This document shows, in pieces, positions 14,609 to 19,434 of a DNA stretch of 64,000 nucleotides. The stretch spans positions 1-64,000 of the forward strand of contig WAOW01000001.1 of the NCBI GenBank assembly GCA_015521085.1, in the 5' to 3' direction. A model generated the notes under the pieces. It did not search any database. It had not been told where the DNA came from and saw only the letters and a program-made list of their open reading frames with translations. Position 1 is the first letter of the stretch, and each line of letters starts with the position of its first letter. The DNA comes from Candidatus Thermodiscus eudorianus. Lineage in GTDB: Archaea; Thermoproteota; Thermoprotei_A; Sulfolobales; Acidilobaceae. A program made the translations under genes and the position numbers.

Positions 14609-15535
14609 TTAGCGTGTCTTCAACTTATACCTTCTCACGCCTCTCTCATCGACGGCCTCGATATAGCCGGCCTCGGCCAGCTTTTTCAGCCTCCTGTACA
14701 GGGGCGTCTTGGGTATCCCCGTCTCCTGCATTATCTCGGTAGCGGTCTTAGGCCCGGCTTCTAGCGCTTTTAGGATGGCGGTATCCCTGTCGTCTAGCTG
14801 CCTCGTTATTGTACCTGTTGTATCGACTTTGACTCCGCCTAGCCTCTTAACGTATCGTCTATAGAGAACCCATGAAGCAATAAATATAGTTATAAATAAA
14901 ACTGTTATAGCTATATATTTATGCCAGGGCCCCGGAAACACGCTAGCGCCTCCGCTAGTCGCCGCTCCATAGCCTCTGGGGGAGCCTTGAACCCTAGACG
15001 CGATGGAACTGGGTAGAACGTAGTACTTCACATAGACCACTCCATCCTCGAACTCGAACCCCGTCACGTTACCAACGGAAACGGGCGCTGGGGTGGGCTC
15101 CATCTCGACGGGTACTATGGGGTCCGATAGCACTACAATGGTATCGCACTCCGTATCCACCCTTAGGATCCAGAGGGTCCCCTCCTTACGGGTGAGGTTT
15201 AGTGTATAGTAGGAGAGGGTTATACTGCCGTTAGCGTACGTGTCTATCACAGCTGTAGTATCATTATACTCTATGGGGGGAGGGGTCCCGCCTTCGTCTA
15301 CAGCGCTCAAATAGAGGGCAGGGCCCAGCAAATCGACAGTTACGCTCGACGGCGCGTTATCCACCTCTATTCTCTCCTCTACGAGAACGCTTCCATCGGG
15401 GTAGACGTGTAGTAGGACTAGGCTACACTCGTTATAGCCGTGGAGGGAGTACGAGACAATACCATAAAATATTGATATAAATATAATGGTGTACATGGCT
15501 AGGCTGTAGAGCAGGGTCTCTGCACGGGCCGGCAA
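14609..15535 (-). CDS. Membrane-spanning one-component regulator with C-terminal winged helix
   Basis: This 308-residue protein has an N-terminal membrane helix (about 13-30), an extracellular beta-rich region of about 180 residues with several Asn-X-Ser/Thr sites, a second membrane helix near 215-235 (YIAITVLFITIFIASWVLY) and a cytoplasmic winged helix from about 250 (ILKALEAGPKTATEIMQETG). The wing resembles TrmB/MarR-like DNA-binding domains. The layout implies that an outside signal is passed straight to DNA. The start may be the TTG at 15535 or the ATG at 15496. The upstream neighbour encodes a secreted helical protein that may be its partner. Confidence 0.65.
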   Translation of the reverse strand: MPARAETLLYSLAMYTIIFISIFYGIVSYSLHGYNECSLVLLHVYPDGSVLVEERIEVDNAPSSVTVDLLGPALYLSAVDEGGTPPPIEYNDTTAVIDTYANGSITLSYYTLNLTRKEGTLWILRVDTECDTIVVLSDPIVPVEMEPTPAPVSVGNVTGFEFEDGVVYVKYYVLPSSIASRVQGSPRGYGAATSGGASVFPGPWHKYIAITVLFITIFIASWVLYRRYVKRLGGVKVDTTGTITRQLDDRDTAILKALEAGPKTATEIMQETGIPKTPLYRRLKKLAEAGYIEAVDERGVRRYKLKTR

Positions 15536-15693
15536 AGACTACCCCTCTCCCCGCAGATATACCTGGAGCCCTCAAGATACAATAGCACTACCATCGCCTC
15601 AGAGCCCTCAAGCCGGGGGCTACAGCTAGTACCCGGGAGCTGGCAGTGCGAGCCTCCACGCCCTAAAAGCCTGAGAGGGACCCTCCAGGCCAT

Positions 15694-17079
15694 CTATCCT
15701 CTCTGGCCTACAGCCTCGGGTATGTTATCCCTGATCCAAGTCATGGCGTGGTCGATCTTCTCTATAAGCCATCGGGGAGCCTTGCAACCGAGCGAGTGCT
15801 TAAGCATGGCGAGGTGTCTATAGGTCTTAGCCGCCTCGTGGACCACCTCCTCTCTAGACACGTTGCCCCCGTCGAGCGAGGCCAGTAGGTGGCGTAGTCT
15901 TGCCATGTCCCTGTCTATCTCGACGGAGACCACCGAGTACACCCTAGCCCGTTCGACTGCCACGAGCTTCCTCATCCTCATGGTTGCGGTGTTTATCTTC
16001 CTCACGTGCTCTATAGCCTGCTTAGTAAACGCGGACTCCCTTATCTCCTCTGTGGCGTTTGTTAGCGTGTCAACGGCTAGCGCTATGTAGGCGCTGGCGG
16101 CATTCGTATTGTTCTCCTCAAGCGACTCTATTGAAGCGTTTATATAGGCTATGCTCTCGTTCACCGACTCGACTAGCGCTTCGAGGAGGCTCGTATAGTT
16201 GCTATAGCCTGTCCTAGCCCCCAACCTATACTCTACCCGTGACAGGAATGCCTCTAGCCTGGATAGCTCCTTGAGGATCGAGTCTAGGCGGAGTACTGCC
16301 ACGCTAGCGTTGTCCTCTTCAATCAGCTTCATCGTCTCATTTAGGCCTTCCGTGATCCTCTCCAGCCCGATGTCAAGCCTCTTTAATGCCTGGAGGTGTG
16401 CATTGACTAGGTGCAATCTCCCGGATAACTCCATGTAGACGAGCCTCGTTAGTCTTCTAATCGAGTAGTCTGCGCCTCTCAGGATTATCTTAGCCTTTCC
16501 CAGATCCCCATTCTCTGCGGCGCGGCGGGCCTCTTCCAGGCTAGCGTTTACTTTCTCGATGCCCGCCTTGAGCCTATCGACCTGTGGCCCGCTCACGTTT
16601 AGGTTGATTATCATGGTGGAGAGGCGGCTGAGTACCATCTCTCTAGCCGCTATTGCCCTGAGTAGCAGTGTCTTCTCCGCCTCGGCCTTATATTTCGGCT
16701 CCAGGTGGCTCCAGACGTATCTAACCACCGGCATGAACCTCTGAGAGGCTATCGTGGCATGTCTGACCGCGTCCTTAATCCGGCCCTCATCGAGGGCCCT
16801 CTCGGCTCGTTCAAGCAGGGTTATCGAATCGTTTATACGGTCATGCATCGCCTCTGGAATGGTTATATTGTGCTTGTTGGCCAGTGCAAGAGTCTTATTT
16901 ATAATCATTGATATCTTTTTAATGTATAGTCTGGCGGCTAGCCTGGACTCCGCCAGCGGTTTCCCATCTACAACGCCTGCCGCCTGGCTCGTGTGGGCGA
17001 TGTAGCTGTTTATAGGGTATGCCATCGTTGATAATAGGAGCACTGCCACCAGGAGTATCCCAGTCTTCCCCGAAGCCAT
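15694..17079 (-). CDS. Secreted or surface helical-repeat protein, function unknown
   Basis: The 461-residue product begins with a signal peptide (ILLVAVLLLSTMAYPINSY) and is then almost entirely alpha-helical. It has repeated amphipathic stretches rich in Arg, Glu and Leu and many Asn-X-Ser/Thr sites (NKT, NDS, NVS, NAS, NYT), as expected for a glycosylated extracellular archaeal protein. No C-terminal anchor is seen. Two helices recur with similar spacing (MRKLVAVERARVYS-like and LERAERALDEGRIKDA-like), suggestive of internal duplication. It lies 158 bases upstream of the membrane regulator on the same strand. No enzyme motif is recognisable. Confidence 0.6.
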   Translation of the reverse strand: MASGKTGILLVAVLLLSTMAYPINSYIAHTSQAAGVVDGKPLAESRLAARLYIKKISMIINKTLALANKHNITIPEAMHDRINDSITLLERAERALDEGRIKDAVRHATIASQRFMPVVRYVWSHLEPKYKAEAEKTLLLRAIAAREMVLSRLSTMIINLNVSGPQVDRLKAGIEKVNASLEEARRAAENGDLGKAKIILRGADYSIRRLTRLVYMELSGRLHLVNAHLQALKRLDIGLERITEGLNETMKLIEEDNASVAVLRLDSILKELSRLEAFLSRVEYRLGARTGYSNYTSLLEALVESVNESIAYINASIESLEENNTNAASAYIALAVDTLTNATEEIRESAFTKQAIEHVRKINTATMRMRKLVAVERARVYSVVSVEIDRDMARLRHLLASLDGGNVSREEVVHEAAKTYRHLAMLKHSLGCKAPRWLIEKIDHAMTWIRDNIPEAVGQRG

Positions 17080-17238
17080 TCCACGCTCCCTCCCAGCTCG
17101 TCTACAGTAGTGGGGGCCCGTGCTAGATTAGGTGCTCGGCGGGAGGAGTCCCGGGACCGCTGGGACAAGGAATAATTATAACTATAACCGATATATCAGG
17201 GGCATGGCTCCGAGCGACGCGGCGCCAAGGGAGCTGGA

Positions 17239-18396
17239 ATGGAGGACGGCAACCGGGTAAAGACGGCGGTCTACGGGGTACCAGTATTCGCCTACATGTA
17301 CACCATCGGCAGTGTAGGCTTCTGGCTACCACTCTACGTCAAACTCCACGGATTCAGCTACCTGGAGGTGCAACTCCTAGCCACAGTCTACTTCATAATC
17401 CTAACGCCATCAACAGTAATAGCCGGCTGGCTCACCGACAAAACAGGCAGGCCCAGCATAATCGCCTCCACGGGCATGCTTCTCAACGCCGCCTCGATAC
17501 TACTCATGGCCCACATAGTAGAGCCACTCCCCCTAATGGCGGTGAGAGTAGTCCAGGCACTCGGCCTATCAGCGGCCATCCCAGTGGCACTGGGAGCCCT
17601 GAGCCTCGCACTCGGAGTCTCCCAGGGAGTAGGCTCCAATGCGTTCATAATGGCCTCCGGGATGTCACTAGGCTCCGTGCTCGGAGGGCTAATCATAGAG
17701 TACCTAGGGTTCAAACCCATGTTCTACTCGGCGGCGGCGATAAGCCTCATAGCAGCCCTAATCTCCCACGCCACAGACTACCCCAGGGTCCAGTCGAGGA
17801 TAGACTTCAGCGAGGCTCTGAGGAGAATACCGGCGAGCGTATGGCTCGTGCTAGCCGGGCTCGTGGGTAGAAACACCCTAGCCACGGGAGTATACTCTAT
17901 CCTAGCGATACTGTTCAACCAGATACTCGGCTTGAGCCTAGTAGAGACGGCCCTGGCCCTGGCAGTGAACCCCATAGTACAGTCCCTGGCAAGCCTCTAC
18001 ATCCCCAAGAGAGTCGAGGGGAGGGAGCTAGCACTATACTCACTCGGTATATCGTCGACCGCCATAGTATTCATGCTATACTACATAACCGACAACATAG
18101 CCACGGCAGCCATCGCACAGACGGTCCAAGGCCTAACATATGCGCTCATAAACATATCCGGCAACGTATACATCATATCGAGGACCCCCAGCGAGATAAG
18201 ATACACCGCGAGCAGCCTCTACGGGTTCGCCTTCAACCTAGGCTGGGTACTGGGGACCCTAGCGGCGGGCGCCTTCATGCAACGCTACGGCCCGATAGCA
18301 TGGCTGAAGCTAGCCATAGCACTGCTCCCGCTGATAGGGCTAGCAACCTATGTAGCCGGTAGGAGGGCAGAACGGGGCCTAGCCCATATAGCCTAG
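17239..18396 (+). CDS. MFS transporter
   Basis: This 385-residue carrier of the major facilitator superfamily has about 12 hydrophobic helices. The loop 2-3 motif is visible as GWLTDKTGRPSII near residue 63, and the second half has similar spacing. The substrate is not predictable; the relatively short loops resemble drug or sugar-acid exporters. The ATG at 17239 follows an AT-rich box near 17170 (AATAATTATAAC). The last 18 bases overlap the end of the convergent DHH-like gene. Confidence 0.85.
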   Translation: MEDGNRVKTAVYGVPVFAYMYTIGSVGFWLPLYVKLHGFSYLEVQLLATVYFIILTPSTVIAGWLTDKTGRPSIIASTGMLLNAASILLMAHIVEPLPLMAVRVVQALGLSAAIPVALGALSLALGVSQGVGSNAFIMASGMSLGSVLGGLIIEYLGFKPMFYSAAAISLIAALISHATDYPRVQSRIDFSEALRRIPASVWLVLAGLVGRNTLATGVYSILAILFNQILGLSLVETALALAVNPIVQSLASLYIPKRVEGRELALYSLGISSTAIVFMLYYITDNIATAAIAQTVQGLTYALINISGNVYIISRTPSEIRYTASSLYGFAFNLGWVLGTLAAGAFMQRYGPIAWLKLAIALLPLIGLATYVAGRRAERGLAHIA

Positions 18397-19434
18397 CCTC
18401 CCGAGGGACTCCCTCAGATCCTCTATAAACCGGTCCTCCCCCTTGCCACCTCTATAGCACACGAAGTTGGCGGGCCCCTGGTAGTAGCCGTAGACCTCGT
18501 AGCCTTTAGCCCGCAGGAGCGAGGAAGCCCTCGCCAGGGGTTTCCCCAGGTTAATGCTCCACGCGCACCCTGTGCGTTCCCGGCTAAGGGAGTCTCTGTA
18601 GACTAGGAGGTTCACCTTGTCGGGAGCCTCCATGGCCATTATCCTGGCTATTGTCAGGTAGTGCCTGCCCTCCCCCTCGGCCACGGCCACCCTGATACCG
18701 TTTTCCTCCGCTGGTTCCAGGCTCTTGTAGACGGAGTCTAGGGCTGCCTCTGCCTCGGCCCTGTAGGTTGTGAGTAGGACGTCCTTCAACATCGCCTTAC
18801 AGGGGTCTGGATCGGCCTCGATCAGACTCCTGGCGGCCTCCGAGTGGACTGCGGGCTGCGACATGCTAGTTATCCCATAGGCCTGCATTGCGCACTCGCT
18901 AGCTATCTGGTAGTCTCTGTTATGGTCCAGCCCCGAGAGGCTCATGAGGGACTGGTAGACCCTGTTTCCGCGGGCCATGTCGCCCATGAGGGCGACTATG
19001 CTGGAGGCGGCTAGGAAGGGATGGGGGTTCCCGGTTATGCTCGATACCAGGCTGGCGGTTGTGGGCCAGTTAGCCCTGGGGTCTCCCCGGGGTGAAGGGT
19101 TGAGGAATAACACGTTGGGCCTCCTGGGCAGCCTGTGGCTCCACGAGTTGTCGATAACCACCACGGGCGCCAAGACCATGGGCGCTAGCAGGTCTATCTC
19201 GACTCCACTCCACCCTGTGCCTAGTAGTATGAGGCTCTTCGCCTCTCTGGACTGGATCGCTAGCTGTTCGAGTTGGGGGTGCCCGGGCTTCCATGTTGTC
19301 GTGGACTCTATAAGCACCTCATCCACGCCGCCACGGTACCTTAATGCTATTAGCGTTGATATCAGGCCGTCGGGGCTCCAGCCGTATACGAGTAGCGGCT
19401 TCTCCCTTAGAGCCTCTAGGGCTTCATCGATCAC
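18379..19434 (-). CDS. Degenerate DHH-family protein (RecJ/Cdc45-like), probably inactive
   Basis: The 351-residue product follows the plan of DHH phosphoesterases but with altered catalytic motifs. GWSPDGLISTLIALR stands where active enzymes have an Asp-x-Asp-Gly motif, and VVVIDNSWSH takes the place of the Asp-His-His motif. A C-terminal DHHA1-like half ends in a CAWSINLGKP / VCYRGGKGEDRFI region. Crenarchaea use a catalytically dead RecJ-like/Cdc45 protein in the replicative helicase complex, so such a role is possible, but a separate orphan paralogue is equally likely. The family call rests on motif position only. The next minus-strand gene starts 10 bases upstream of its start. Confidence 0.5.
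   Translation of the reverse strand: MIDEALEALREKPLLVYGWSPDGLISTLIALRYRGGVDEVLIESTTTWKPGHPQLEQLAIQSREAKSLILLGTGWSGVEIDLLAPMVLAPVVVIDNSWSHRLPRRPNVLFLNPSPRGDPRANWPTTASLVSSITGNPHPFLAASSIVALMGDMARGNRVYQSLMSLSGLDHNRDYQIASECAMQAYGITSMSQPAVHSEAARSLIEADPDPCKAMLKDVLLTTYRAEAEAALDSVYKSLEPAEENGIRVAVAEGEGRHYLTIARIMAMEAPDKVNLLVYRDSLSRERTGCAWSINLGKPLARASSLLRAKGYEVYGYYQGPANFVCYRGGKGEDRFIEDLRESLGRLGYMG

Follow-up and report, generated by a model that had tools for sequence, protein, structure and literature searches.

A secreted helical protein and a predicted membrane-spanning winged-helix regulator form a recurrent gene pair with a candidate operator in Candidatus Thermodiscus eudorianus and its relatives

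Transmembrane transcription regulators (TTRs), one-component proteins with a DNA-binding domain and a transmembrane (TM) region, are common in archaea, including Thermoproteota, according to the parts of the survey by Demey et al. (2023) used here (PMC10269533). The same parts describe ToxR/ToxS-type systems, in which a membrane regulator is combined with an extracytoplasmic accessory protein, often lipocalin-like (PMC10269533). In Sulfolobus acidocaldarius, ArnR/ArnR1 is a membrane-bound HTH regulator of surface structures; in the sections of its description drawn on here, the HTH of ArnR is N-terminal and is accompanied by a HAMP-like and a sensor domain, with two TM segments at the C-terminus, and the promoter boxes are repeated (PMC6396743).

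A gene pair comparable in part to these systems lies in the window, the whole stretch of 64,000 nucleotides that was analysed, within contig C1 of the 1.52 Mb genome of Candidatus Thermodiscus eudorianus (GCA_015521085.1). A genome-contig scan returned 25 loci, the best-matching named one being from a Thermodiscus sp. MAG. In the ORF list, the gene for the helical protein (hp) is followed downstream on the minus strand by that for the winged-helix regulator (wr; Table 1). Two starts are candidates for wr, the TTG at 15535 and an ATG 13 codons later, of which the ATG is the less likely. The original prediction, made from the letters alone, had drawn attention to this pairing of a regulator with a helical protein, and that observation is confirmed.

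Table 1. Features of the hp-wr locus, in window coordinates
Feature	Position	Strand	Basis
hp: secreted all-helical, sequon-rich protein, 461 aa, N-terminal hydrophobic segment (predicted)	15694..17079	-	ORF, AlphaFold2, sequons, homologues
wr: membrane-spanning winged-helix regulator, 308 aa, TTG start (predicted)	14609..15535	-	ORF, Pfam, AlphaFold2, homologues
wr N-terminal hydrophobic segment, residues 9-27, signal anchor or signal peptide	15455..15511	-	hydropathy; model helix 3-30
wr ectodomain, residues 36-175, beta-sandwich, ribophorin I/Ost1- and M1 aminopeptidase N-domain-like	15011..15430	-	predicted model, Foldseek, VIA
wr TM2, residues 207-225, after Ser/Thr/Pro/Gly-rich stalk	14861..14917	-	model, hydropathy
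wr winged helix-turn-helix, residues 247-305, recognition helix IPKTPLYRRLKKL	14621..14797	-	Pfam, model, fold match
hp-wr gap, 158 bases: no supported gene, not conserved, probably inside transcript	15536..15693	-	ORF list, gap comparison
Candidate operator GTCCCGGGAC, sole copy in genome	17148..17157	.	promoter alignment, genome scan
Further TCCCG-type half-site adjoining the palindrome	17139..17147	.	promoter alignment
Conserved ACCTAATCTAG block, TATA-like position for hp, putative role	17123..17133	-	promoter alignment
MFS transporter, divergent, upstream region common with hp	17239..18396	+	Pfam

An AlphaFold2 model of wr (mean pLDDT 85) contains a beta ectodomain at residues 37-173 (pLDDT mostly above 90), a TM helix at 204-231 and a winged helix at 249-305, with low-confidence linkers around TM2 (185-201 and 232-244); hydropathy marks hydrophobic segments near residues 9-27 and 207-225. 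Six Pfam wHTH families exceed their cut-offs in wr (HTH_24, TrmB, HTH_20, HTH_5, HTH_IclR and MarR_2), the wHTH matches ArsR/MarR-type regulators in VIA (Z about 11), and the solved structures found with the wr sequence are mostly wHTH regulators. Four sequons lie in the external part and none in the cytosolic part, and five K/R residues follow TM2 within 15 residues versus one before it. In an alignment of 20 members (A4), sequons occur in the ectodomain of 19 and in the cytosolic part of two, and all 20 have K/R at a higher frequency in the 15 residues that follow TM2 than ahead of it. Sequon placement and K/R bias across A4 thus predict a beta-domain outside and a winged helix inside, so the soluble region is placed externally and not in the cytosol. 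The route from surface to promoter in a single protein that had been proposed for wr is supported by this predicted order of outside beta-domain, TM helix and cytosolic wHTH. The DNA-binding domain of ToxR is N-terminal, unlike that of wr.

As in the TTRs, DNA-binding domain and TM region are joined in one protein, and wr falls within the broad definition given in the available parts of that survey (PMC10269533); what wr adds to it is a linked helical secreted partner, a predicted ribophorin/M1-N-like ectodomain and a conserved candidate operator. It shares with ArnR, as far as the sections drawn on go, the character of a crenarchaeal membrane-bound HTH regulator with repeated promoter boxes (PMC6396743), but the order is reversed, with TM segments before a C-terminal wHTH, and there is an outside domain. 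On this order, wr was not assigned to the ArnR/ArnR1 type.

The closest folds to the ectodomain come from elsewhere. Foldseek placed Ost1 and M1 N-domain groups on top (E from 3e-6; whole-chain TM-scores are low, as one domain alone aligns), and in VIA the predicted ectodomain matched yeast Ost1 (8agb_E) with Z 12.8 over 157 residues at 3.4 A and M1 aminopeptidase N-domains with Z about 10. In Ost1, a subunit of OST, the beta-sandwich stands just before a TM helix, as it does in wr; the two differ in that the cytosolic part of wr is a wHTH and that Ribophorin I/Ost1 has no match over the Pfam cut-off here. A lumenal-type beta-sandwich followed by a TM helix is thus present in wr by fold alone, on a predicted model. 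Membership of Ribophorin_I (PF04597) by sequence was rejected, as none of 98 genomes of the order had a match over cut-off and the window genome had no match. The likeness to ribophorin I/Ost1 and M1 N-domains, which on the model would have the beta-sandwich in common with wr, is accordingly a match of predicted fold.

Haloarchaeal DUF7345-DUF7343 membrane wHTH proteins presumably have the same plan as wr, with an outside domain, a TM segment and a C-terminal wHTH. They differ in that DUF7345 (PF24036) was not over cut-off in any of 60 genomes of relatives, and membership by sequence was rejected on this count; among 14 control genomes four matched, including Haloferax volcanii, one of them over cut-off. 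DUF7343 (PF24034) gave weak matches in seven of 20 wr members (E ≤ 0.1, best 4e-4), the window wr not being listed among them.

The gene preceding wr had been described as encoding a large, glycosylation-site-rich helical surface protein with no known family, and the computed features agree with that description. There are 13 N-x-S/T sequons in hp versus 2.5 in shuffles, and the sequon z reaches at least 4 in eight of the 12 members of alignment A3 (hp included), the two members poorest in sequons being not above chance. The hp model is all-helical after a low-confidence N-terminus (mean pLDDT 81), and the N-terminal hydrophobic segment is read as a predicted signal peptide. No Pfam family matched hp over cut-off, Foldseek with the hp model returned nothing at E ≤ 0.001 (best 0.012), and the solved structures found with its sequence were mostly designed or unrelated helical proteins. 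The best VIA rows (Z 15.9) were designed helical bundles; as these scores are near the range given to helical models generally, a known fold was rejected and no relationship is claimed. At E ≤ 0.1, Pfam YfdX was matched by six of the 12 hp members, the lowest E being 4e-5, but the window hp was not one of them.

Co-occurrence of the two genes was surveyed at several depths. Among 60 relatives, wr-type matches were found in 49 genomes (many via the wHTH alone) and hp in 14. A profile search of 214 genomes of the order found hp in 78 (E ≤ 0.001, many weak) and wr in 153 (E ≤ 1e-10). Strong hp matches (E ≤ 1e-40) occurred in 31 genomes, in 12 of which hp is followed by wr on the same strand (G000, G002, G004, G017, G025, G033, G038, G048, G073, G074, G084 and G110); contigs end inside wr in G002, G025 and G084, and inside or right at hp in G003, G135 and G156. 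Families f2 and f10 and genome G012 have hp without an adjacent wHTH-bearing wr. The hp loci inspected were those of G056, G036, G157, G046, G161, G160, G164, G154, G054, G213 and G044; G159, G163, G162 and G153 were left out of this inspection and G012 was judged by contig numbers. Pairing of hp with wr is not universal. In a phylum-wide search of 398 genomes, hp-like matches at E ≤ 1e-8 were found in 25. The two genes stand 18-29 bases apart in L242 and L246 (labelled Geothermarchaeota), L243 (Nitrososphaeria) and L247 (labelled Thermoprotei), and each of these four has, a few kb away, a second wr that is followed by a further helical gene. In the Geothermarchaeota contigs, too, hp precedes wr on one strand.

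Starting from wr matches, a secreted helical gene (at least 200 aa, Gly+Pro ≤ 8.5%, N-terminal hydrophobic segment) was found within two genes in 42 of 90 loci, 20 of these loci coming from one fetch and 70 being hand-picked from the wr match list (most, not all, of the listed matches, and for some a nearby hp had already been seen). Such a gene occupied 34 of 176 places at ±1 versus eight of 499 at ±3 to ±6 (Fisher p about 2e-14, with loci of one genus not independent); for the 20-locus set alone the counts were six of 39 versus five of 149 (p 0.011). With the first batch included, 50 of 105 loci had a helical gene within two genes, a count that left out six hp-selected first-batch loci and ten later hp-selected ones. 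The remaining 48 of the 90 loci have no helical neighbour by this fixed rule, which misses some cases found with the hp profile (for example, G068, G070 and G071). The recurrence of the pair that a synteny survey was expected to show is thus seen in related genera and in Geothermarchaeota contigs.

Of the two intergenic regions proposed as binding targets, the one upstream of hp is the likelier. The 158-base gap between hp and wr is without a supported gene, as had been noted, its 64-aa ORF being unsupported. Its suggested role as control region did not stand: the gap is poorly conserved within the genus and measures 16-210 bases in other same-strand, hp-first pairs, and it was rejected both as operator and as hidden gene.

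In the region 17080-17238, three blocks are common to four genus members: TATATCG on the MFS side, a palindrome, and ACCTAATCTAG nearer hp. The outer bases of the palindrome TCCCGGGA change together (G..C in G000 and G002, T..A in G004 and G003), and a TCCC half-site follows it. The equivalent place in other genera is taken by TTTCCCGC-type half-sites, ahead of a similar ATCTAG block. Among 12 hp promoters (those of the closer hp relatives, out of 18), enrichment was highest for the 6-mer CGGGAA, present in nine versus 0.68 expected from 79 control promoters; the motif was not chosen beforehand, and the k-mer p-values ignore relatedness within genera. In G000 the count of exact TTCCCG is zero, the variant there being GTCCCG. 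The palindrome GTCCCGGGAC occurs once in the genome, and a reversed control at nine places. Together these features make the palindrome upstream of hp the likely control site and a candidate operator, and the prediction that this region would be a binding target is borne out to that extent.

Across seven genomes, the double motif TTCCCG-N(2-24)-TTCCCG was found at 32 places. Eight of these belong to hp promoters, in six of the genomes; the remaining 24 comprise 17 within ORFs, five intergenic ones and two that were not placed. There is no genome-wide enrichment of it, the reversed control pattern occurring at 55 places, and what is special about the double motif is its placement at the hp promoter. 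A motif-blind repeat test (some 6-mer in at least three copies) did not discriminate pair promoters (27 of 51) from controls (46 of 111), and a scan for bacterial-type promoters and terminators is uninformative for an archaeon. Separately, an intergenic 14-mer, TTCCCGGATTCCCG, is identical in three genomes of one genus (G017, G074 and G025; L270:1501-1514, L274:649-662 and L276:1501-1514) and could be a second target site; no tRNA lies near it at the three loci, and no Rfam match at two of them.

In other lineages the sites change together with the regulator. The shared promoters of 13 divergent pairs contain 22 GGAAC sites versus 4.3 in dinucleotide shuffles and 19 TGAAAC sites versus 1.4. 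Three direct TGAAAC copies with spacings of 12 and 9 are found in L156, L159-L161 and L163 (three genera), and L219 has copies spaced 12 and 10 bases. Operons with wr first have neither this excess nor an enrichment of GGAA. The recognition helix differs by motif class (KTPLYRR, KSTLWRR or KATLWRR), a pattern that was found after looking, from which single members deviate (L172 and L203) and whose comparison leaves out L064 and L186. This is the co-variation that regulators each recognising their own promoter would produce.

Computed support thus comprises architecture, topology, conserved linkage, a cis-element that is conserved and near-operon-specific, and motif/recognition-helix co-variation. 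The reading preferred here, to which we give a probability of roughly 0.55, is that wr acts as an autoregulator while tethered to the membrane: it would chiefly target the operon that encodes it and set how much hp is supplied to the surface. The two genes would form one operon with its promoter within 17080-17238, and wr would sit in the membrane with the beta-sandwich outside and the winged helix inside. The winged helix would bind half-sites that are repeated immediately before the hp core promoter (GTCCCGGGAC here), and hence the operon itself would be the main target. Carried on a flexible stalk, the ectodomain may read hp, or the envelope layer containing hp, and the DNA-binding part would then adjust hp supply, as a feedback controller of one surface protein. 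Against this reading speak the occurrence of hp with no wHTH-bearing wr beside it in f2 and f10, the 48 wr loci that lack a helical neighbour, the motif-blind repeat test and the lack of GGAA enrichment in wr-first operons. As the operator lies upstream of the TATA-like block, activation is suggested as the sign of control in this clade; in f9 the promoter comparison reads as an array close to the start of the helical gene, and the sign may therefore differ there. Because other intergenic sites are scarce, the regulon is argued to be small, possibly with the addition of the divergent MFS gene common to this genus. A divergent multi-TM gene (385-396 aa) is at the equivalent place in G004, G002 and G003, and the MFS gene is a possible co-target of wr. 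Beside it in the window, a 351-aa ORF (18379-19434, minus strand) has no Pfam match up to E = 1; ORFs of similar length adjoin the MFS gene in L047 and L048.

More tentatively, hp may be a co-sensor of ToxS or CpxP type that passes an outside signal or the state of the envelope to wr, whose key targets would lie elsewhere, with autoregulation secondary. Membrane regulator and extracytoplasmic accessory protein would then be combined as in the ToxR/ToxS-type systems, and bacteria are known to have transmembrane regulators with accessory proteins, as the parts of the survey used here describe (PMC10269533). The wr loci without a helical neighbour imply that wr can have other targets, and in this genus the divergent MFS gene has its control region in common with hp; the candidate operator, however, is nearly operon-specific. 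Nor does hp look like a small dedicated co-sensor, its counterparts across pairs measuring about 350 to 1463 aa; the accessory proteins of ToxR/ToxS-type systems are often lipocalin-like (PMC10269533), whereas hp is a long helical protein.

It is rather doubtful that the two genes are mere neighbours, an ordinary envelope protein and an ordinary membrane regulator that share a promoter and make no contact outside the cell. The presence of hp without an adjacent wr in f2 and f10 would fit this, but the linkage recurs in several gene orders: hp is first, wr is first or the two are divergent, depending on the lineage, and because the order varies the linkage has survived rearrangement. Moreover, hp-like genes of genus g5 (L224 and L225) stand beside wr ectodomain copies that lack a wHTH, an arrangement that suggests the two external parts go together. 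Release of the winged helix from the membrane by signal-dependent proteolysis is very improbable, for although low-confidence linkers flank TM2 and the wHTH is in a separate frame after TM2 in four genomes, most wr copies are single fused proteins and no protease was noted among the genes annotated beside the pair.

Several variants of wr were observed. The split genes belong to two families, f8 and f10 (L170:4986-5910, L171:5285-6188, L056:4302-5301 and L216:2781-3732); a T6 run lies close behind TM2, the ectodomain-TM frame stops a short way beyond that run, the wHTH continues in the next frame, and T6-type runs are rare in the G+C-rich contigs. Programmed slippage, gene fission and assembly error are alternative explanations. 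Receptor-like proteins with a wr-type ectodomain and TM segment but without a winged helix occur beside or near helical genes at L224:166-2291, L225:3540-5680, L085:8962-11747 and L219:5045-7576. The neighbours of the wr homologue in f11, whose genomes are among the larger ones of the order, are small secreted proteins of beta-rich and not helical appearance (L204-L206, L209 and L213).

A more far-reaching version of autoregulation by wr, which we regard as speculative and unlikely as a whole, is a widespread archaeal surface-protein homeostat, in which a receptor ectodomain with a common origin with the OST subunit ribophorin I would sense a glycosylated helical rod protein and tune its gene from the membrane, some lineages making DNA-binding and DNA-binding-less receptors from one gene via T6 slippage.

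Transmembrane regulators as such are known; for the hp-wr pair with its operator and ectodomain fold, no description was found in the open-licence literature, and the combination is apparently undescribed there. Little has been established about the means by which archaea perceive the condition of their envelope. The hp-wr pair is a recurring and defined unit of two genes whose predicted target site the genome contains in a single copy, and through wr a fold familiar from the machinery of N-glycosylation would be linked to a surface receptor of archaea.
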